From Halopseudomonas salegens (GTDB lineage: Bacteria; Pseudomonadota; Gammaproteobacteria; Pseudomonadales; Pseudomonadaceae): a stretch of 64,000 nucleotides of DNA. The notes under the pieces are model-generated. The model had not been told where the DNA came from. It saw only the letters and a program-made list of their open reading frames with translations, and ran no database searches. The stretch covers positions 2,666,001 through 2,730,000 of the forward strand of contig NZ_LT629787.1 of assembly GCF_900105655.1 (NCBI RefSeq), written 5' to 3'. Both the position numbers and the translations under genes were made by a program. Every line of letters begins with the position of its first letter. Position 1 is the stretch's first letter. This document shows, one piece after another, positions 30,345 through 39,946 of the stretch.

Positions 30345-30605
30345 GCCGGCAATTGCGGAAAAATCCTTTAATGGCAGGGAGTTACGACGAACGGCAGGGA
30401 TTCAGGTTGAGCAATGGAGGTAAAAACCGAACAAGATCATCCACCCGAAACACAAAGTTAAAGTGAATTATCAAGAGTAAGATTATTTCGTTCTGAGGGG
30501 AGAGGTTTTTGCGCAAAAAATAACCAATAGCGAGCAGTCATGCCACAAGAAGGCGCTTACCGGCCCGAGCCTGACGGCCCGATAGCCGCCAGGATAGAAA
30601 AAATC

Positions 30606-30955
<350 letters not shown>

Positions 30956-30961
30956 GCCACT

Positions 30962-30990
30962 AGGTTAGCCTGCTGGCAGCCCGCCAGCAA
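30962..30990 (-). promoter_or_regulatory. rnpB promoter
   Basis: Minus-strand TTGCTG (30990-30985) and TAACCT (30967-30962) with a 17-base spacer place the start about seven bases downstream, exactly at the predicted 5' end of RNase P RNA (30955). Fit to sigma70 consensus is moderate, but the geometry is ideal. Confidence 0.65.
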
Positions 30991-31016
30991 GCACGATTGG
31001 CAACCCGAGGACAAAA

Positions 31017-31063
31017 TGCACCACAAACCCGCGACCGGAGCGCAAAACGCACCAAAAACGTGC
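31017..31063 (+). promoter_or_regulatory. Two NtrC-like enhancer sites upstream of the guanidine operon
   Basis: GCACCAAAAACGTGC (31049-31063) differs from the NtrC dyad GCACC-N5-GGTGC at one position. A weaker site begins TGCACCA (31017-31023), about 31 bases, three helical turns, further upstream. Their centres lie near -109 and -140 relative to the start predicted for the sigma54 promoter at 31138-31154, essentially the positions of the two strong NtrC sites at the enterobacterial glnA promoter. The first site is convincing, the second only as its partner. Confidence 0.65.
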
Positions 31064-31112
31064 GCAAGCGGAGCAAGAATCAGTCGTCTGAACGGCTCAT
31101 GCGCCGACCCAT

Positions 31113-31136
31113 CTTGTATACAAGCTTGTACACCAG
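31113..31136 (+). promoter_or_regulatory. Tandem 12-base palindrome upstream of the sigma54 promoter
   Basis: CTTGTATACAAG (31113-31124) is a perfect 12-base palindrome, directly followed by an imperfect copy CTTGTACACCAG (31125-31136). The pair lies between the NtrC-like sites and the -24 element, about -52 to -29. TTGTATACAA-type palindromes are often bound by GntR-family or similar dimeric regulators; which protein binds here is unknown. Confidence 0.45.
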
Positions 31137-31137
31137 G

Positions 31138-31154
31138 TTGGCACGGCGCCTGCA
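31138..31154 (+). promoter_or_regulatory. Sigma54 (RpoN) promoter of the guanidine operon
   Basis: TTGGCACG-GCGC-CTGCA matches the -24/-12 consensus (TGGCACG-N4-TTGCA) except for one base, with GG at 31140-31141 and GC at 31152-31153 separated by exactly ten bases. Transcription would begin near 31165, about 75 bases before the riboswitch. With the NtrC-like sites upstream this points to induction under nitrogen limitation. Confidence 0.75.
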
Positions 31155-31238
31155 TTAACTCCTGTGCATCGAGATCCAGGCCTTAAGGGTTCTGAGCATG
31201 CCGAGCCTTGCGCTCGCACATATGGGTACCAATGGACA

Positions 31239-31328
31239 TCTAGGGTTCCGACCTGCCAGGCAGGTGACTGGACCGAGAGTTGTCGACCTCCAGCGGGGGT
31301 TACACGGCGGGATAAAAGCCCGGGAGAC
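31239..31328 (+). ncRNA. Guanidine-I (ykkC) riboswitch aptamer
   Basis: The conserved blocks of the ykkC class occur in order: CTAGGGTTCCG (31240-31250), CTGGACCGAGAG (31268-31279), then ACACGGCGGGATAAAAG and CCCGGGAGA ending at 31327. A stem ACCTCC/GGGGGT (31286-31300) fits the variable helix between the second and third blocks. The class binds guanidinium and usually turns on guanidine carboxylase, carboxyguanidine deiminase or efflux genes; exactly such genes follow. This is the strongest evidence that the downstream 'urea' genes act on guanidine. Confidence 0.93.
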
Positions 31329-31370
31329 ACTCAGACGCCTGAGATCTCTTACCTGTAACCATTGGAGACC
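31288..31370 (+). promoter_or_regulatory. Predicted riboswitch expression platform (Shine-Dalgarno sequestration)
   Basis: GGTTACA (31298-31304), inside the aptamer, is fully complementary to TGTAACC (31354-31360), and CTCCA (31288-31292) is complementary to TGGAG (31363-31367), which contains the Shine-Dalgarno GGAG of the permease gene. The two helices are compatible with each other and exclusive with the aptamer stem ACCTCC/GGGGGT. A small hairpin, CTCAG-ACGC-CTGAG (31330-31343) with GAGA/TCTC flanks, fills the loop. No U-tract follows, so translational rather than transcriptional control is inferred. Guanidine binding would free the ribosome site. Confidence 0.6.
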
Positions 31371-31373
31371 GCC

Positions 31374-32192
31374 ATGCCCCGACTGATGAACCGGCAACCA
31401 GGACGCCCGCTCAAACTGGCACTGGTCCTGCTGCCCTTCGCTCTGCTCCTGTTGCTGTACGTGTACAACTCGCAGGCGCGGCTGGCAGAAAACCCCAATG
31501 ACAAGCTGCTGCCCAGCTTTTCCCAGATGAGCGACGCCGTTGAACGCATGGCCTTTACCGAGGATCGGCGCAGCGGACGTTATCTGCTGTGGGATGATAC
31601 CGCCGCCAGCCTCAAACGCCTGGGTACGGGTTTAGGCATCAGTGCAGCCGTCAGCCTGGTGTTCGGCCTGGCCATGCTGATTCCCTTGCTGCGCATGCCT
31701 TTCTCACCCTTGATTACCGTCATCTCGATGATCCCGCCCCTCTCCATACTGCCGATTCTGTTTATTGTGTTGGGGCTCGGCGAACTGTCCAAGGTGATGC
31801 TGATCGTGATCGGCATCACCCCGGTACTGATACGTGACCTGCAGCAACGGGTCAGCGAGATTCCGACGGAAACCCTGGTCAAAGCGCAAACGCTGGGCGC
31901 CAATACCTGGCAAGTGGTCATCCGCGTAGTCTTGCCTCAACTGCTACCACGCCTACTGCTGGGTCTCAGCCTGGCACTGGGCCCGGCCTGGTTGTTCCTG
32001 ATTGCCGCCGAGGCCATCGCCTCCACCGAAGGCCTGGGCTACCGCATCTTCCTGGTACGTCGCTACCTGGCGATGGACGTGATCCTGCCCTACGTGGCCT
32101 GGATAACCCTGCTCGCTTTCATCATGGACCGGATTCTCAAAGGCACCGGCCGTTTGCTGTTCCCCTGGTTCGAACCCAAAGGAGCTCACTGA
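31374..32192 (+). CDS. ABC transporter permease (SsuC/TauC type), probable guanidine/urea importer
   Basis: 272-residue inner-membrane permease with about six helices and the binding-protein-dependent transport signature around IPTETLVKAQTLGANTWQVV (the EAA loop that contacts the ATPase). Start ATG 31374 has GGAG six bases upstream; a TTG at 31362 is in frame but lies inside that ribosome site. First gene behind the riboswitch. Related 'urea carboxylase associated' transporters have a periplasmic binding protein encoded just upstream; none is present here. Substrate guanidine is inferred from context. Confidence 0.88.
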   Translation: MPRLMNRQPGRPLKLALVLLPFALLLLLYVYNSQARLAENPNDKLLPSFSQMSDAVERMAFTEDRRSGRYLLWDDTAASLKRLGTGLGISAAVSLVFGLAMLIPLLRMPFSPLITVISMIPPLSILPILFIVLGLGELSKVMLIVIGITPVLIRDLQQRVSEIPTETLVKAQTLGANTWQVVIRVVLPQLLPRLLLGLSLALGPAWLFLIAAEAIASTEGLGYRIFLVRRYLAMDVILPYVAWITLLAFIMDRILKGTGRLLFPWFEPKGAH

Positions 32193-32193
32193 T

Positions 32194-32997
32194 ATGAGTG
32201 CCATCGAAATCAAGGGCGTCTGGCAGCAATATGCCGACCTGGTCGTACTGGAAAACATCAACCTTAACGTCGACAGCGGTGAATTCATCACCATGGTCGG
32301 CGCCTCCGGCTGCGGCAAGTCCACGTTCCTGCGTCTGCTGTTGGGTCAGGAAGCACCCAGCAAAGGTGAGTTGCTGCTGGACGGCAAACCGCTGGCAAAA
32401 GAGCCCGGCCCCGATCGTGGCGTGGTTTTTCAGCGTTACTCGGTATTCCCGCATCTGACTGTGCTCGGCAACGTACTGCTTGGGCTGGAGCTACAGGAAT
32501 CCCCATTCCTGGGCCGCTTACTCGGTGCCAAGCGCCGCGAAGCACGCGAAAAAGCCGTCGCCATCCTGGAAAAGGTCGGCCTCGGGCATGCCCTGAACAA
32601 TTACCCACATGCGCTCTCCGGCGGCATGCAGCAACGCCTGGCGATTGCCCAGGCACTGGTCAAAGCGCCGCGCATCCTGCTACTCGACGAGCCATTCGGC
32701 GCGCTGGACCCGGGCATTCGCAAGGACATGCACGACCTGCTGCTGGACTTGTGGAAACAGACCGGTCTGACTGTGTTTATGGTCACCCATGATCTGGCCG
32801 AGGGTTTCACCCTGGGCACGCGTCTGCTGGTCTTTGACAAGACCCGCGTCGATCCTCAAGCACCCGGCGCCTATGGCGCCCGCATCACCTATGACATCCC
32901 GCTGAACAGTGACCGTAAGGCGGCCAAAGCTGCCGTTGACGCTCTGCCTGAAAGCGTCACCCGTTCACTGTCCACTAGCCCAGCGCAAGGAGCCTGA
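32194..32997 (+). CDS. ABC transporter ATP-binding protein (nitrate/sulfonate/taurine type)
   Basis: 267-residue ATPase energising the preceding permease. Walker A is GASGCGKST (near residue 36), the signature LSGGMQQRLAIAQAL, Walker B ILLLDEPFGALD and the switch histidine in FMVTHDLAEG. A C-terminal extension of ~60 residues follows the core. Two bases separate it from the permease, with GGAG upstream, so the two are one unit. Confidence 0.92.
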   Translation: MSAIEIKGVWQQYADLVVLENINLNVDSGEFITMVGASGCGKSTFLRLLLGQEAPSKGELLLDGKPLAKEPGPDRGVVFQRYSVFPHLTVLGNVLLGLELQESPFLGRLLGAKRREAREKAVAILEKVGLGHALNNYPHALSGGMQQRLAIAQALVKAPRILLLDEPFGALDPGIRKDMHDLLLDLWKQTGLTVFMVTHDLAEGFTLGTRLLVFDKTRVDPQAPGAYGARITYDIPLNSDRKAAKAAVDALPESVTRSLSTSPAQGA

Positions 32998-32999
32998 AG

Positions 33000-33728
33000 A
33001 TGACTCTGCCTGCACCCGTTCGCCCCACCCTGTACCGGGAAGTTCTACCCGGCGGTGGGCATACCTCTTTCGTACTGAAACGCGGCCAGTTGCTGCGCCT
33101 GACCGATATCGAAGGCGGCGCCAACGTCGGCCTGCTGCTGTTCAACGCACAGGAGAAAAGCGAACGCCTGAACCTGCCCGACAGCCTCAAGTGCCAACAC
33201 ACCGCCAAACTGACCGCCGGCCACTGCCTGTACTCGGATATGGGCCGGGTGCTGGCAGCCATCGTCAGCGACAGCTGCGGCTGGAGCGACAGTTTCGGTG
33301 GTGTACTGAATGCCGATGAAGTGCAGGAGAAGTATGGCGACGGCAACTATCAACAGCTGCGCAACGGCTTTTACCGCAATGGCGTCGACAACCTGCTGGT
33401 GGAAATGGGCAAATGGGACATGCAGCTGCAGGACCTGCTGATGACCCTGAACCTGTTCAGCAAGGTCACCGTGGATGCCAACGGCCAGTTCCAGTTTCAC
33501 CCCGGCAACAGCAAAGCCGGCGATGTCATCGAACTCTATGCCCCCATGGATACCCTGGTGGTACTGACCGCTCTGCAACACCCGCTGGACCCGAATCCCG
33601 AGTATGCACCCAAGCCGGTCAAGCTGAGCTGGCATCGGGTCAGTGAAGACGGCATCACCGTACTGTGTCGCCGCACCCGCGAGGAAAATGTTCGCGGCCT
33701 GCACAACACCGACCGTATCTTTCTCTGA
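33000..33728 (+). CDS. DUF1989 protein, carboxyguanidine deiminase subunit (urea amidolyase-associated protein 1 type)
   Basis: 242 residues. DUF1989 proteins encoded in pairs with this carboxylase were shown to form a carboxyguanidine deiminase, which converts carboxyguanidine to allophanate and ammonia. Conserved here are [45 protein letters not shown] (Cys/His/Asp-type metal region) and [19 protein letters not shown]. Two bases after the ATPase. The assignment to one or other subunit is by length and resemblance only. Confidence 0.85.
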
Positions 33729-33741
33729 TGAGGGCCAGACC

Positions 33742-34377
33742 ATGACCTTGACCCACAGCGACAAACAGATCGAGCAGGCCAGCTTCCGCAGCACCATTGC
33801 CGCGGGCGAGCCCTTCATGCATGACCTCAAGGCCGGCCAGACCCTGCGTCTGCTCGATCTGGAAGGCAATCAGGCGGTCGATACACTGTTTTTCAGTGCG
33901 ACCAATCCGCGCGAGCGCTATGACGTGCAACGCACCCTGCGCAAACAGAATGCCGTCTACCTGACCACCGGCAGTGTGCTCTACAGCAACCTGGGCAACC
34001 CGATGCTGACGATTACCGCCGATACCTGCGGCCGCCACGACACCCTGGGCGGTGCCTGCGCCCAGGAAAGCAACACCGTGCGCTACGCCCTGAACACCCG
34101 CTACATGCACAGCTGCCGCGACAACTTCCTGCGCGCCGCGCTGCACGACGGTCGCCTGCGCAAGGCCGACATCAGCCACAACATCAATTTCTTCATGAAT
34201 GTGCCGGTGACGCCCGAAGGCGGACTGACGTTTGAAGACGGCATCTCCGGCGCCGGCAAGTACGTTGAACTGGTCGCGCACATGGACACTATAGTCCTGA
34301 TTTCCAACTGCCCCCAACTCAACAACCCTTGCAACGGCTACAACCCGACGCCGGCGGAATACATCGTTTGGGACTAA
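33742..34377 (+). CDS. DUF1989 protein, second carboxyguanidine deiminase subunit (urea amidolyase-associated protein 2 type)
   Basis: 211 residues, a paralogue of the preceding protein: [41 protein letters not shown], and [18 protein letters not shown] align block by block. The start ATG 33742 lies 13 bases after the previous stop; the frame open to 33643 overlaps that gene and is rejected. The C-terminus [12 protein letters not shown] is typical. Expected to form a hetero-oligomer with its neighbour and to bind a divalent metal. Confidence 0.85.
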
Positions 34378-34385
34378 CCCAAAAA

Positions 34386-34472
34386 GCCGCTGAAAGCTGG
34401 AGGCCGAATGCCGCAAGCAGCCACTCACTGCACGCGCAACCTTCCAGCGTCCAGCCTTGAGCCTCCAGCGTT
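34386..34472. repeat. Intergenic CTGGAGGC/GCCTCCAG inverted-repeat element
   Basis: GCTGGAGGC (34396-34404) and GCCTCCAGC (34461-34469) are perfect inverted arms about 56 bases apart, with further short TCCAGC-type repeats between them. A second element of the same style lies at 44527-44661. Just downstream CCGGGACGACCC occurs twice (34483 and 34515) before the carboxylase ribosome site. Similar Gly/Leu-coding-like CTGGAGGCTGAAG repeats are common between pseudomonad genes. It may be a partial terminator or mRNA-stability hairpin inside the operon. Confidence 0.5.
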
Positions 34473-34541
34473 GTAACGCTCACCGGGACGACCCGACGGG
34501 CGACGAAAAAGGAACCGGGACGACCCGGTCGAGGAAAGACC

Positions 34542-37500
34542 ATGTTCAACACCCTGCTGATTGCCAACCGTGGTGCCATTGCCTGCCGCATCCTGCGCAC
34601 CCTGAGAACCCTGGATGTGCGTGGCGTGTCGGTGTATGCCGAAGCGGATGCCGGCAGCCTGCATGTACAGCAGGCCGACCAGGCAATTGCCCTCGGTGAA
34701 GGCGCCGCCTCAACCACTTACCTGAATGTCGACAAGATTCTCGCCGCCGCCCGTGACAGCGGTGCCCAGGCCATCCATCCCGGGTATGGTTTTCTCTCGG
34801 AAAATGCCGCCTTCGCCGAAGCCTGCGAAGCCGCCGGGATTGCCTTTGTCGGCCCGACGCCCGAGCAACTGCGCGTATTCGGCCTGAAGCACACTGCCCG
34901 CGCGCTGGCGAAAAAACATGGCGTACCCATGCTGGAAGGCACCGAGCTGCTGGATAGCCTGGACGAAGCACTGACCGCCGCCGAAGACGTCGGCTACCCC
35001 ATCATGCTGAAAAGCACCGCTGGCGGCGGCGGTATCGGCATGCGCGTGTGCCAGTCAGCCAGTGAACTGAGCGAGGCCTTCGAGGCGGTCAAACGTCTGG
35101 GACAGAACAACTTCAGTGATGCCGGCGTGTTTATCGAAAAATACATCCAGCGCGCCCGCCATCTGGAAGTGCAGGTCTTTGGTGACGGTCAGGGCGAGGT
35201 GTTGGCCCTGGGCGTACGCGACTGCTCGGTACAGCGCCGCAACCAGAAAGTGCTGGAAGAAACCCCCGCGCCCAACCTGCCTGAAGGCATGGCCGAGGCT
35301 TTGTGCGAAGCGGCCATTCAATTGGCCAGCGCCATCAACTATCGCAGCGCCGGCACCGTGGAGTTCGTCTATGACAGCGCCGCCGCGCAGTTCTACTTTC
35401 TCGAAGTGAATACCCGCCTGCAGGTCGAGCACGGCGTCACCGAGCAGGTCTGGGGTGTGGATATCGTCGACTGGATGGTACGTCTGGCTGCCGGTGACCT
35501 GCCCCCGCTCAGCGAGCTCGGCAAGGACCTGCAACCGCGTGGCCACGCCATCCAGGCACGCCTGTATGCCGAAGATCCGGGCCGCGACTTTCAGCCCTGC
35601 CCCGGCCTGCTGACCCAGGTCGACTTCCCCGCCGCTGACGGTCAGCAGGTCCGTATCGATACCTGGGTCGAAGCCGGCTGCGAGATTGCCCCCTACTTTG
35701 ATCCCATGATCGCCAAACTGATCTGCTGGCAGCCCAGCCGCGAGCAGGCCAGTGCCGCACTCGACCAGTTGCTGGCCGACACCCGGCTCTACGGCGTGGA
35801 GACCAATCAGGGCTATCTGCGGCAAATTCTCAATGATGCCCCTTTCACCAGCGGTGAACCCTGGACCCGCTGCCTGGAAGACCTGCAGTATCAGGCAACC
35901 ACCTGCGAAGTGCTGATTGCCGGCACTCAAACTACGGTACAGGATCTGCCTGGCCGTGTTGGCTACTGGGCCGTTGGCGTACCGCCATCCGGCCCGATGG
36001 ATAGCCGCGCCCTGGCATTGGCTAACCGCCTGCTGGGCAACGCAGCGGACGCTGCCAGCCTGGAAATGACCATGAGCGGCCCGACCCTGACATTCAATAC
36101 AGCTACCCAGGTGGTGATTACCGGTGCCCCCATGCCGGTCAGCCTGGATGGCGTGGAACAACCCATGCAGCAGGTGCTTGATATTCCCGCCGGCAGCACA
36201 CTGGGCCTGGGCACCATTGCCGGCGCTGGCGCACGCAGCTATCTTGCCATTCAGGGCGGCTTGCAGGTCCCGGATTACCTGGGCAGCAAGAGCACCTTTA
36301 CCCTCGGCCAATTTGGCGGCCACGGCGGTCGTGCCCTGCGCGCCGGAGATGTGCTGCGCCTGCTGCCACTGGAACAGGTCGCTTCAGCCAGCCTGCCGGC
36401 TGACCTGGTTGCACCCCTCGGCGAGGTGCGCGAGCTAAGGGTCATCTATGGCCCCCATGGCGCGCCGGAATATTTCACGGCTGACTATATCGAGCAGTTT
36501 TTCGCCATCGAATGGGAAGTGCATTTCAATTCCAGCCGCACCGGCGTGCGCCTGATCGGTCCCAGGCCGGAGTGGGCGCGCGAGGATGGCGGCGAAGCCG
36601 GTCTGCACCCGTCCAACATTCACGACAACCCCTACGCGGTGGGCGCTGTCGACTTTACCGGGGATATGCCGGTGATTCTCGGCCCGGATGGCCCCAGCCT
36701 GGGCGGCTTTGTTTGCCCGGTAACCATCATCGAGGCGGACCTGTGGCAGATGGGCCAGCTCAAGGCCGGTGACAAGATCCGCTTTACTCCGGTCAGCATT
36801 GAAACTGCCCGCGAACTGGCGCAGCTGCAAAAAACCGAAATCGCTGAACTGCAGCCACACTGCCCCACGCAAAGCCCGGCTATCGCCCTGGCCTCACCGA
36901 TTATTCTGGATACCGGCAAGGACGATACCCGCCTGGTCGCGCGGCTGTCCGGCGATACTCACTTATTGCTGGAAATCGGCCCGCCGGAGCTGGATCTGGT
37001 CCTGCGTTTCCGCGGCCATGCCCTGATGCAGGCACTGGAAGCCGAGCAACTGGATGGCATTATCGACCTGACCCCGGGCATCCGTTCGCTGCAGGTACAT
37101 TACCAGCCGGAAACCCTGACGCTGGAGAAGCTGCTACGCATCGTCGGCAAGCTGTGGGAACAGGTATGCAGCGCCGAAGATCTGCGCGTGCCCTCACGCA
37201 TCGTACATCTGCCGTTGTCCTGGGATGACCCGGCCTGCCAGCTGGCGATCGAGAAATACATGACCACGGTGCGCAAGGATGCGCCCTGGTGCCCGAGCAA
37301 CCTGGAATTTATCCGCCGCATCAATGACCTGCCGGATCTGGAGGCGGTCTACCGCACGGTGTTCGAGGCCAGCTATCTGGTGATGGGCCTGGGTGATGTG
37401 TATCTGGGCGCACCGGTAGCCACTCCACTGGACCCGCGCCACCGCCTGGTCACCACCAAGTACAACCCGGCACGCACCTGGACCGCCGAAAACTCGGTGG

Positions 37501-38147
37501 GTATCGGCGGCGCCTATATGTGCATCTACGGCATGGAAGGCCCAGGCGGTTACCAGTTTGTCGGTCGCACCCTGCAGGTGTGGAATCGCTATCGCGAAGT
37601 CGAGGCCTTTGGCGGCAAGCCCTGGTTGCTGCGCTTTTTTGACCAGATCCGCTTTCACCCGGTATCGGCTGACGAGTTGCAACAGATTCGCAGCGACTTT
37701 CCGCTTGGTCGCCACTCTGTGCAGATCGAAGACACCGAATTGCGCCTGCAGGACTATCAGGACTTTCTGGATAGCGAAGCCGATGGCATCAGTTCTTTCC
37801 GCCAACAGCAGAAAGCCTCTTTTGAAGCCGAACGCCAGCGCTGGATCGCCAACGGCCAGGCCGACTACCAAAGTGAAGAGGCGGTCGCCGAGACCGGTGA
37901 TGAAGAGCCCTTGCAAGCTGGTCAGCACAGTATCGACAGCCATATCGCCGGCAACCTGTGGCAGGTCCAGGTCAGCGAAGGTGACCAGGTCAACGCCGGC
38001 GATGTGCTGGTGATTCTCGAATCCATGAAGATGGAAATACCTTTGACCGCGCCTTGCAGTGGCGTGGTCAGAACCGTTCATGCCCAACCAGGCTCTCCGG
38101 TTCGTGCCGGGCAGCGGGTCCTTGTTCTGGAGGAATACCCTCAATGA
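34542..38147 (+). CDS. Biotin-dependent guanidine (urea) carboxylase
   Basis: 1201 residues. Domain order: biotin carboxylase with LLIANRGAIACRI at the N-terminus, ATP-grasp (KSTAGGGGIGMRVC; EVNTRLQVEHGVTE) and C-domain to about 445; a carboxyltransferase of KipA-like (TVQDLPGRVGYW, near 465) and KipI-like parts (from about 800); and a biotinyl domain with Lys1163 in ESMKME. The enzyme carboxylates guanidine or urea using ATP and bicarbonate. The guanidine-I riboswitch and paired DUF1989 genes argue for guanidine as true substrate. GAGG lies eight bases before the ATG; the stop overlaps the next gene by four bases. Confidence 0.93.
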   Translation: MFNTLLIANRGAIACRILRTLRTLDVRGVSVYAEADAGSLHVQQADQAIALGEGAASTTYLNVDKILAAARDSGAQAIHPGYGFLSENAAFAEACEAAGIAFVGPTPEQLRVFGLKHTARALAKKHGVPMLEGTELLDSLDEALTAAEDVGYPIMLKSTAGGGGIGMRVCQSASELSEAFEAVKRLGQNNFSDAGVFIEKYIQRARHLEVQVFGDGQGEVLALGVRDCSVQRRNQKVLEETPAPNLPEGMAEALCEAAIQLASAINYRSAGTVEFVYDSAAAQFYFLEVNTRLQVEHGVTEQVWGVDIVDWMVRLAAGDLPPLSELGKDLQPRGHAIQARLYAEDPGRDFQPCPGLLTQVDFPAADGQQVRIDTWVEAGCEIAPYFDPMIAKLICWQPSREQASAALDQLLADTRLYGVETNQGYLRQILNDAPFTSGEPWTRCLEDLQYQATTCEVLIAGTQTTVQDLPGRVGYWAVGVPPSGPMDSRALALANRLLGNAADAASLEMTMSGPTLTFNTATQVVITGAPMPVSLDGVEQPMQQVLDIPAGSTLGLGTIAGAGARSYLAIQGGLQVPDYLGSKSTFTLGQFGGHGGRALRAGDVLRLLPLEQVASASLPADLVAPLGEVRELRVIYGPHGAPEYFTADYIEQFFAIEWEVHFNSSRTGVRLIGPRPEWAREDGGEAGLHPSNIHDNPYAVGAVDFTGDMPVILGPDGPSLGGFVCPVTIIEADLWQMGQLKAGDKIRFTPVSIETARELAQLQKTEIAELQPHCPTQSPAIALASPIILDTGKDDTRLVARLSGDTHLLLEIGPPELDLVLRFRGHALMQALEAEQLDGIIDLTPGIRSLQVHYQPETLTLEKLLRIVGKLWEQVCSAEDLRVPSRIVHLPLSWDDPACQLAIEKYMTTVRKDAPWCPSNLEFIRRINDLPDLEAVYRTVFEASYLVMGLGDVYLGAPVATPLDPRHRLVTTKYNPARTWTAENSVGIGGAYMCIYGMEGPGGYQFVGRTLQVWNRYREVEAFGGKPWLLRFFDQIRFHPVSADELQQIRSDFPLGRHSVQIEDTELRLQDYQDFLDSEADGISSFRQQQKASFEAERQRWIANGQADYQSEEAVAETGDEEPLQAGQHSIDSHIAGNLWQVQVSEGDQVNAGDVLVILESMKMEIPLTAPCSGVVRTVHAQPGSPVRAGQRVLVLEEYPQ

Positions 38148-39946
38148 CGCACTTTGTTCATGACTTGCGCTTGCCCCAACTAGCGGCCAGCTACCGATCT
38201 GGTGCCCTGACCCCGCGCCAACTGCTGCTGGGGCTGCGTACTCAGGCGGAACAACTCAATGAAAGCAACCCGCTGTTTATTCACTTGCTGACCGAAGCCG
38301 AACTGGAGCCATATCTGACCGCGCTGGAGAACAACAATCCGGAAGAGCTGCCGCTCTATGGGGTACCCTTTGCGCTCAAGGACAATATAGACCTGGCCGG
38401 TATCCCGACCACCGCCGCCTGCCCGGCTTATGCCTATACCCCGGAAAAGTCAGCAACCCTGGTACAGCAGCTGATTGACCTGGGCGCGGTACCGCTGGGC
38501 AAATCCAATCTGGACCAGTTTGCGACCGGACTGAACGGCACCCGCTCACCTTACGGTGCCTGTCACAACGCGACCCATCCGGACTATCCTGCTGGCGGCT
38601 CCAGCTCAGGTTCCGCCCTGAGTGTCGCCCTCGGGCTATGCAGTTTTGCTCTGGGTACCGATACTGCAGGCTCCGGCCGGGTGCCGGCAGCACTGAACAA
38701 TCTGGTCGGGCTCAAACAGACCCGGGGCTTGCTGTCAGTCGCCGGCGTTGTACCCGCCTGCCGCACCCTCGACTGTGTGACCTATTTTGCCGCGACCGCT
38801 GCCGAATGCTCAACGCTCCTCGGCCTGACCGCCAAACAGGACAGTGCTGACGACTATAGCCGCACCAATCCGCTATGGAACGCAGCTGATGCCTTCGGCA
38901 CCCCCCGACCGTTCCGCTTTGGCGTGCCCAAAGCGGTCGAGTTTCTCGGTTGTACCGAAAGCCCCGCCCTGTTTGACCAGGCCATCGAACACCTCAAGGC
39001 GATCGGTGGCACCCCGGTAGAGATTGATCTGACGCCTTTTATGGCCGCCGCCAAACTGCTCTATGACGGCCCCTGGGTGGCCGAGCGCTACAGCGTCGCA
39101 GGTCCGTTGATCGAGAGCGATCCCGACGCAGTGCTGCCGGTGATCCGCGCCGTGCTGGAAAAAGCGCCCGACTTCACTGCGCAGGACAGCTTTGAAAACC
39201 AGTACCGTTTGCAGGCGTTCAAGGTCATTTGCGACCGGGTTCTCTCCGACGTTGACTGCATACTGACCCCGACCATTCCGCGCCCGGTCACCCTGGCCGA
39301 ACTGGATGCCGAACCCGTAGCCCGCAACAGTGATCTGGGCTATTACACCAACTTCATGAACCTGCTGGACTACACTGCTGTGGCGGTACCCAGTGGTTTT
39401 ATGGCCAATGGCTTACCCTGGGGCGTGACCCTGTTCAGCCGCGCCTTTACCGATCACTATCTGCTCAGCCTGGCAGCCGCCGTGCAACAGCACAGCGGCT
39501 TGCCCTTGAGTGGTGAACGCTCGCTGGATAGCAGCCTGCCGACGACCCCGGCGCGCAACGATATGGCCCGCGTGGTGGTCTGTGGCGCGCATCTGGATGG
39601 CTTGCCGCTGAACTGGCAATTGCGCCAGCGCGGCGGGCGTTTGCTGCAAGCCACCAAGAGTTCACCCGATTACAAGTTGTATGCTCTCGCTGGTGGGCCA
39701 CCCATGCGCCCAGGCATGCTGCGCGTCAGTGAAGGGGGTCAGGCAATCAAGGTGGAAGTCTGGGAATTACCCAGCCGCGAGCTGGGTTCGTTTTTGACTG
39801 GAATTCCAGCGCCGCTGGGGCTGGGCAAGGTACAGCTGGCCGATGGGCGCTGGGAAACCGGCTTTATTTGCGACCCCTATGGACTTGAGGGGGCTAGCGA
39901 TATCACGGAATTTGGTGGCTGGAAGGCTTGGTTGGCCAGTCGTTGA
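38144..39946 (+). CDS. atzF: Allophanate hydrolase
   Basis: 600-residue amidase-signature enzyme hydrolysing allophanate to ammonia and CO2, last step of the pathway. The Ser-cisSer-Lys triad is visible as Lys79 (ALKDN), Ser153 (GGSSSGS) and Ser177 (DTAGSGR), with the same spacing as in the characterised AtzF. A C-terminal domain of about 120 residues (from MARVVVCGAHLDG), typical of this family, follows. Start ATG 38144 overlaps the carboxylase stop (ATGA). Confidence 0.93.
   Translation: MTHFVHDLRLPQLAASYRSGALTPRQLLLGLRTQAEQLNESNPLFIHLLTEAELEPYLTALENNNPEELPLYGVPFALKDNIDLAGIPTTAACPAYAYTPEKSATLVQQLIDLGAVPLGKSNLDQFATGLNGTRSPYGACHNATHPDYPAGGSSSGSALSVALGLCSFALGTDTAGSGRVPAALNNLVGLKQTRGLLSVAGVVPACRTLDCVTYFAATAAECSTLLGLTAKQDSADDYSRTNPLWNAADAFGTPRPFRFGVPKAVEFLGCTESPALFDQAIEHLKAIGGTPVEIDLTPFMAAAKLLYDGPWVAERYSVAGPLIESDPDAVLPVIRAVLEKAPDFTAQDSFENQYRLQAFKVICDRVLSDVDCILTPTIPRPVTLAELDAEPVARNSDLGYYTNFMNLLDYTAVAVPSGFMANGLPWGVTLFSRAFTDHYLLSLAAAVQQHSGLPLSGERSLDSSLPTTPARNDMARVVVCGAHLDGLPLNWQLRQRGGRLLQATKSSPDYKLYALAGGPPMRPGMLRVSEGGQAIKVEVWELPSRELGSFLTGIPAPLGLGKVQLADGRWETGFICDPYGLEGASDITEFGGWKAWLASR

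Follow-up and report, generated by a model that had tools for sequence, protein, structure and literature searches.

In a 64,000-nucleotide (nt) stretch of Halopseudomonas salegens DNA (NZ_LT629787.1; hereafter the window, whose positions supply all coordinates), a six-gene operon predicted to take up and break down guanidine begins at 31374 and faces the divergent gene for RNase P RNA (rnpB). Between the two lie, in this order, a weak NtrC-like dyad, a good NtrC-like dyad, a sigma54 element and a guanidine-I riboswitch aptamer. We consider it quite probable that these parts form a nitrogen-regulation (Ntr) promoter placed in series with guanidine-responsive leader RNAs, a layout of the AND type. 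The sequence elements, their geometry and their conservation are plain in the DNA, and the genome encodes both NtrC and RpoN. Combined control of the operon by NtrC/sigma54 and guanidine-I had been proposed in an earlier note on this DNA, and it is supported by the elements, their conservation, their recurrence across the phylum and the presence of the two regulatory genes.

From these parts we infer a circuit with NtrC as activator, in which the whole operon would be transcribed from a single sigma54 promoter. RNA polymerase carrying sigma54 at 31139-31154 would remain closed until, under nitrogen shortage, phosphorylated NtrC binds the dyad at -109 and loops over to it, perhaps assisted by weaker sites. 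The transcript would run from about 31165, and its leader would bear the guanidine-I aptamer. Without guanidine, the segment at 31352-31360 may take the 3' strand of P3, and the freed 5' strand may cover the Shine-Dalgarno sequence of the first gene; with guanidine, the aptamer would hold and the first gene would be translated. An independent guanidine-II switch would control the carboxylase at the level of translation. The two conditions, shortage of nitrogen and presence of guanidine, would act in series, so that the operon would need both, and the substrate would be checked twice.

The sigma54 -24/-12 element, TGGCACGGCGCCTGCA (31139-31154, plus strand), has its GG at 31140-31141 and, after ten bases, its GC at 31152-31153. 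It agrees at 11 of 12 positions with TGGCACG-N4-TTGCA, the consensus to which identity was scored, and it bears out the GG-N10-GC element given previously as 31138-31154. Transcription from sigma54 promoters begins 12 nt beyond the C of this GC, a spacing rule that places the predicted start (+1) at about 31165 on the plus strand. The proximal enhancer dyad, CGCACCAAAAACGTGCG (31048-31064, plus strand), is centred near -109 and scores 9/12 strictly, or 11/12 when Y/R is accepted at its two ends. The upstream dyad, TGCACCACAAACCCGCG (31017-31033, plus strand), is centred near -140 and scores 8/12. Enteric glnA has two NtrC enhancer dyads, and an exact pair of that kind was dropped as a description of the window, the second dyad being too weak.

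Conservation was followed in close relatives. The search covered 96 genomes and yielded 40 orthologous upstream regions, partial hits in G015, G017, G020 and G028 being omitted; one region (L035) ends before the aptamer, and the other 39 give 41 guanidine-I sites, or 42 with the window. A GG-N10-GC element of at least 8/12 by strict scoring, a threshold that carries no shuffle control, stands 45-112 nt before the aptamer at 38 of the 42 sites; L063, L064, L065 and L066 have no such element at that score. Nine aligned rnpB-adjacent loci, the window included, all carry TGGCA in the -24 region, TGCATT in the -12 region and the proximal GCACCA half-site without change; the 3' half of the proximal dyad and much of the intervening sequence vary. 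A second dyad lies 22 base pairs (bp) above the first in six of the eight rnpB-adjacent relatives and 31 bp above it in the window; the two nearest relatives (G018, G029), which share the window's extra bases, have no second dyad of at least 8/12 at either place. Because the alignment keeps the GCACCA half-site but not the place of the second dyad, the proximal dyad is well supported and the second is not. The earlier note had described GCACC-N5-CGTGC at 31049-31063 with a weaker dyad above it, and had proposed aligning orthologous upstream regions for the -24/-12 element and both dyads. Its proximal dyad and the two centres near -109 and -140 stand, and the alignment does not refute the layout; its second dyad is weak and not conserved in place. 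Some genomes of the same family hold two or three guanidine-I sites (L048, L050; G276, G040, G049, G456, G347, G471), mostly close together and each with its own sigma54 element.

The promoter-plus-RNA layout, as predicted from its elements, recurs in many relatives and is not local. Guanidine-I is found in 43 of 398 genomes of the phylum, at 58 sites, of which 55 exceed the Rfam cut-off; all 58 (the window, L061 and 56 others) were examined. A sigma54-type element of at least 10/12 (Y, R and W accepted at three positions) stands no more than 130 bp upstream at 45 of the 58 sites, against 1.27 on average and at most 5 in dinucleotide shuffles, 0/58 in each of two windows farther upstream and 2/58 on the opposite strand. 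Raising the threshold to 11/12 leaves 43 of 58 sites (shuffle mean 0.16). The 45 positive sites span, by our own count, 14 of the 20 families that have guanidine-I. An NtrC-like dyad of at least 10/12 lies 40-160 bp above the element at 27 of these 45, mostly at 60-120 bp; shuffles average 2.04 and reach at most 6, and a far window gives 2/45. At seven sites, all outside the window's class (L190, L193, L201, L207, L208, L211, L215), the element stands 25-27 nt before the aptamer, and the transcript would begin almost at the riboswitch.

A pattern scan of species genomes for a sigma54 element followed by the guanidine-I core returned at least 119 stretches, in which the element is present by construction and only the dyads were tested. 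These loci hold at least 125 matches; among the matches listed, 119 have enough upstream DNA and 75 of those 119 show a dyad (shuffle mean 5.32, maximum 10; far window 2/114). In the 80 titled loci, out of at least 119, a dyad is present in 47 of 77. Pseudomonas, Paraburkholderia, Cupriavidus, Raoultella terrigena, Buttiauxella, Alcanivorax, Marinomonas and Gallionella are among the loci listed. Onishia taeanensis (L262), which we take to be a halomonad, has a sigma54 element, a 10/12 dyad and guanidine-I. These numbers bear on the idea that promoter and dyads are chance matches in the intergenic region shared with rnpB, with the operon read from an unseen promoter. The pattern TGGCACN5YTGC does occur 60 times in the genome (15 times in a reversed control), and the intergenic region must also carry the rnpB promoter. 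Against these points stand the excess of 45/58 over the shuffles with both far windows empty, a -24/-12 core that is invariant while its flanks diverge, and the presence of the elements also where rnpB was not found alongside, so that a chance origin is hardly credible.

The window's promoter can also be compared with others of its own genome. RpoN (TIGR02395) and NtrC (TIGR01818) are both encoded over the respective cut-offs. GCACCN5SGTGC occurs 46 times, at 30 places, against 9 times in a reversed control, and when this list and that of TGGCACN5YTGC were compared by eye, only the window and nirB had a correctly oriented dyad 60-130 bp upstream. Four stretches were scanned, namely glnK, nirB, the region upstream of ntrC and the first amt gene. 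The glnK stretch, whose PII product is over cut-off, has a 10/12 sigma54 element with dyads, and nirB has an 11/12 element with dyads; the NirB match of 536 bits, made with a partial stretch, is under the model's cut-off of 578 for the whole length. The dyad is offset from the sigma54 element by -91 in the window, -93 at glnK and -89 at nirB. The predicted guanidine promoter resembles NtrC/sigma54 promoters such as those of glnK and nirB, where candidate dyads stand about 70-130 bp above the start of a -24/-12 element.

The RNA half of the layout comprises two predicted switches. The guanidine-I aptamer (31229-31328, plus strand; Rfam RF00442) scores 88.4 bits against a cut-off of 63 (E 1.7e-14) and confirms the ykkC aptamer previously placed at 31239-31328. 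The earlier note had described this one switch; it overlooked a guanidine-II (mini-ykkC) riboswitch at 34480-34528 on the plus strand (RF01068, 35.4 bits, cut-off 32), which ends 13 nt before the carboxylase ATG and contains a 14-nt direct repeat. Each class was found once in this genome, both within this operon, and guanidine-II is over cut-off in 25 of the 40 orthologous regions.

A route from the guanidine-I aptamer to translation can be drawn from predicted pairings. The first gene has a Shine-Dalgarno sequence, UGGAG, read at 31363-31367 (plus strand). The 5' strand of P3, CUCCA (31288-31292, plus strand), could pair with it, a role suggested by the sequence and by forced folding. The 3' strand of P3, GGUUACACGG (31298-31307, plus strand), is complementary, with one bulge, to the proposed competitor CCUGUAACC (31352-31360, plus strand), for which the evidence is predicted pairing and forced folding. 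When the free leader is folded, 31299-31304 and 31306 pair with 31353-31359 at a probability of 0.71-0.74. The full alternative has a folding energy of -76.0 kcal/mol, the enforced aptamer -71.4 and the free minimum -79.2. Of the eight rnpB-adjacent relatives, six have a complement to GGTTACACGG, which measures 10 nt and 9 nt in the closest pair, 8 nt in three others and 7 nt in one, and two (L033, L036) have none; shuffles reach 10, 9, 8 and 7 nt in 0, 2, 7-9 and 22 of 100 cases, respectively. Pairing of CCAAUGG (31229-31235) with CCAUUGG over the Shine-Dalgarno sequence was rejected, as 27 of 100 shuffles reach 7 nt and the match is, by eye, lost in the closest relatives.

An intrinsic terminator was rejected as the output of the window's guanidine-I, none being found on the plus strand from 30950 to 31450. 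Its absence at guanidine-I is no general rule, judging by U-tracts within 70 nt, which occur at 7 of 42 orthologous sites (the window is not one of the seven) and at 16 of the 45 phylum-set sites that show the 3' core pattern (11 of 56 were dropped for lack of it). Plasmid searches turned up Caballeronia and Pantoea, with others, and the copy on a Pantoea agglomerans plasmid has, by eye, a hairpin and a T-run.

Several observations weigh against an Ntr promoter in series with guanidine switches. Within the window, the second dyad is weak. The Shine-Dalgarno sequence is predicted to be about equally accessible in the free leader (0.45) and when the aptamer is enforced (0.44); the folding alone therefore shows no switch, and the masking of the Shine-Dalgarno sequence by a P3 strand swap is a guess. 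The window's longest contiguous complement is 7 nt, a length that 27 of 100 shuffles also attain. A scan for sigma70-like promoters found none near the guanidine-I leader, a weak negative since it failed to detect any promoter for rnpB either. In the same genome, the nirB stretch was chosen because both patterns met there, and the two stretches of the four at ntrC and amt have 10/12 elements only and no dyads. Across the phylum, the pairing has exceptions, as 13 of 58 guanidine-I sites (three under the Rfam cut-off) have no sigma54 element; a 10/12 dyad is missing from all seven sites whose element stands 25-27 nt before the aptamer; and Raoultella terrigena joins a full-consensus sigma54 element to dyads of just 9/12. 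Because sites and loci are related by descent, their counts are not independent and speak for strength rather than for separate events.

A further such point is the lack of a 10/12 NtrC-like dyad at 18 of the 45 sites with a sigma54 element. It would be expected if the sigma54 promoter were real but NtrC had no part or only a minor one in it, the activator being a different enhancer-binding protein that responds, for instance, to guanidine or some other nutrient. Candidates exist in the genome, where seven NtrC-family proteins match at more than 340 bits and just one is over the NtrC cut-off. This explanation is improbable given that the dyad at -91 resembles those of glnK and nirB, that dyads in the enhancer zone are enriched (27/45 against 2.0, and 75/119 against 5.3 among the matches listed), that the six operon genes include no activator, and that, according to the available portions of one study, a Burkholderia cenocepacia urea carboxylase gene is ntrC-dependent (PMC5491218).

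The Ntr promoter might instead set amplitude only, with enough transcript on ammonium, the riboswitches as the real switch and a graded logic. We regard this as unlikely, though less so than a different activator. Sigma54 promoters are tight in the absence of their activator, which speaks against this reading; in its favour, the sigma70 scan is too insensitive to argue against a basal promoter. Published work on related operons bears on the same question. Operons with both guanidine-I and guanidine-II are described for Vreelandella boliviensis and for Raoultella, Klebsiella and Erwinia in the available parts of two articles (PMC12508155, PMC12186494). They share with the window guanidine-I before the operon, guanidine-II before the carboxylase, and genes for an ATP-binding cassette (ABC) importer, the deiminase pair, the carboxylase and allophanate hydrolase; by contrast, the present operon includes no substrate-binding protein gene, and a search of its guanidine-I leader found no intrinsic terminator. 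All operon proteins of V. boliviensis rise on guanidine or methylguanidine, and three are still detected on ammonium at levels about three orders of magnitude lower, which favours control of amplitude only; the authors ascribe the induction to the two riboswitches (PMC12508155, available parts). That experiment varied nitrogen source and guanidine together, so the two are inseparable in it, and because nitrogen status changed too, an Ntr-type promoter could supply part of the effect. In the accessible text of PMC12508155 and PMC12186494 the terms NtrC and rpoN do not occur, nor does sigma54 in the former or sigma in the latter.

Each half of the arrangement is separately known, and what appears new is the joining of an Ntr promoter to guanidine riboswitches. 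A survey of sigma54 regulons lists 102 COG3665 genes, 59% of them identified as urea carboxylase (PMC12316311), and RNA sequencing of a B. cenocepacia ntrC mutant shows a urea carboxylase transcript down by log2 6.0 (PMC5491218). These sources likewise report sigma54/NtrC control of "urea carboxylase" genes, and they differ from the present case in that their available portions make no mention of guanidine and do not address whether the enzymes act on it; there, "riboswitch" appears only in a reference title of PMC12316311 and is absent from PMC5491218. The earlier note was not aware of this layout for guanidine carboxylase operons. Its claim of novelty must give way for NtrC dependence and predicted sigma54 control, both already in print in those portions, and holds for the union with a riboswitch: in the open-access literature, no paper was found that joins guanidine riboswitches with NtrC or RpoN. 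Two papers on NtrC were discarded as precedents, the Caulobacter one since, in the part available, it merely uses a reporter riboswitch (PMC12421884) and the Pseudomonas stutzeri one since urea carboxylase, allophanate and guanidine terms are absent from its main text (PMC8443478).

The closest parallels come from other nitrogen systems, each cited here from the accessible part of its source. The nas nitrate operons combine NtrBC control with leader-RNA antitermination by NasT (PMC5424462), and NasR acts by leader antitermination in a nas nitrate-assimilation operon (PMC7496416). General nitrogen control and substrate-specific control of leader RNA stand in series there, as they would in the guanidine operon; in nas, nitrate is sensed by a protein that binds the leader, whereas in the guanidine operon the RNA itself would bind the substrate. 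For Paracoccus denitrificans, the NtrC site on the nas structural operon is described as not yet identified (PMC5424462). The gifB transcript of Synechocystis, which belongs to nitrogen metabolism, is likewise subject both to a global nitrogen regulator, NtcA, and to a glutamine riboswitch (PMC6316151), but NtcA represses, the RNA senses glutamine, which signals nitrogen status and is no substrate, and no sigma54 is involved. In the guanidine circuit a riboswitch would play the part that the nas nitrate operons give to a leader-binding protein.

The predicted guanidine carboxylase encoded at 34542-38147 (plus strand; TIGR02712) matches a family model named urea carboxylase. In an alignment to yeast urea amidolyase chain 5i8i, with numbering counted by hand, its Asp704 aligns with yeast Asn1330, a position at which Asp or Asn presumably separates guanidine from urea carboxylases. 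Asp is present in 36/36 aligned clade members, four of the 40 loci fetched having been left out of the alignment, and Asn in 10/10 paralogues. In one of the 36 (G014), guanidine-II is present and the contig ends before the guanidine-I position. None of the ten paralogous loci has a guanidine riboswitch within 6.1 kb. An 11/12 sigma54 element occurs somewhere in those 6.1 kb in nine of the ten (L079 has none), and seven of these nine have a dyad of at least 9/12 in the enhancer zone; the loci carry no shuffle control, and the rate in the phylum scan implies roughly 0.1 chance element per locus. Since these paralogues have sigma54 elements and no riboswitch, nitrogen control looks common to both enzymes, with the RNA layer going with guanidine.

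On balance we also favour, with somewhat less assurance than for the window itself, a general rule for assimilation operons of Pseudomonadota, in which guanidine-I would typically be a substrate-specific RNA module behind an Ntr-type sigma54 promoter, sister urea carboxylase operons would have the promoter but no riboswitch, and "induction" by guanidine relative to ammonium would mix both controls. If this is true, published inductions of this kind need to be re-read, and growth comparisons of guanidine with ammonium are predicted to overstate the riboswitch effect. A leader RNA fed by a promoter of nitrogen starvation would mark guanidine as a fallback nitrogen source and not a poison, and this suggests that switches for assimilation might be told from those for detoxification by sequence.

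Guanidine-I also stands before other genes. At L196, L198 and L206 (with L213 alike in gene sizes), guanidine-I and a sigma54 element precede, by eye, a different binding-protein-like gene, and no match to the window's operon proteins was found in 3 kb at the first three. L219 and L220, which lie by eye before DMT-like transporter genes, and L221 are under the Rfam cut-off and have no sigma54 element. L195 has guanidine-I before an agmatinase-like gene (by eye; possibly a guanidinase) and likewise no sigma54 element.

The remaining operon genes, all on the plus strand, encode a TauC/SsuC-like ABC transporter permease (31374-32192; PF00528), an ABC transporter ATPase (32194-32997; PF00005), UAAP1 (33000-33728; TIGR03425, over cut-off), UAAP2 (33643-34377; TIGR03424, over cut-off) and allophanate hydrolase (38054-39946; TIGR02713), the limits of the last two being those of the open reading frames. 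The match to UAAP2 runs from residue 48, and its real start is probably later than the frame limit. UAAP1 and UAAP2 are presumably the carboxyguanidine deiminase subunit and the second deiminase subunit, and their linkage, with allophanate hydrolase, to the carboxylase is as expected of a guanidine carboxylase operon. No substrate-binding protein gene was found in the operon, where the ABC importer is incomplete; because relatives vary too, this is not taken to exclude the operon from the guanidine carboxylase type. Two homologues, compared with a relative's protein, lie elsewhere in the H. salegens genome (G000), at 2973413-2974459 (61%; it matches TIGR03427) and 178469-179503 (54%), the former sitting, by eye, between glutamine-synthetase-like and TetR-like genes. 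Outside the rnpB-adjacent group, the permease of many relatives is preceded by an open frame of about 350 codons.

The insensitive sigma70 scan found no promoter before guanidine-II either. Between UAAP2 and guanidine-II, an imperfect inverted repeat with 26-nt arms (73%; 34393-34472) is possibly a repeat element. The rnpB gene itself (30602-30955, minus strand; RF00010, 331.7 bits), which the earlier note had also overlooked, is a divergent neighbour outside the operon. Its likely promoter, TTGCTG-N17-TAACCT, read by eye at 30960-31000 on the minus strand and missed by the sigma70 scan, lies roughly 20-60 bp from the NtrC-like dyads.

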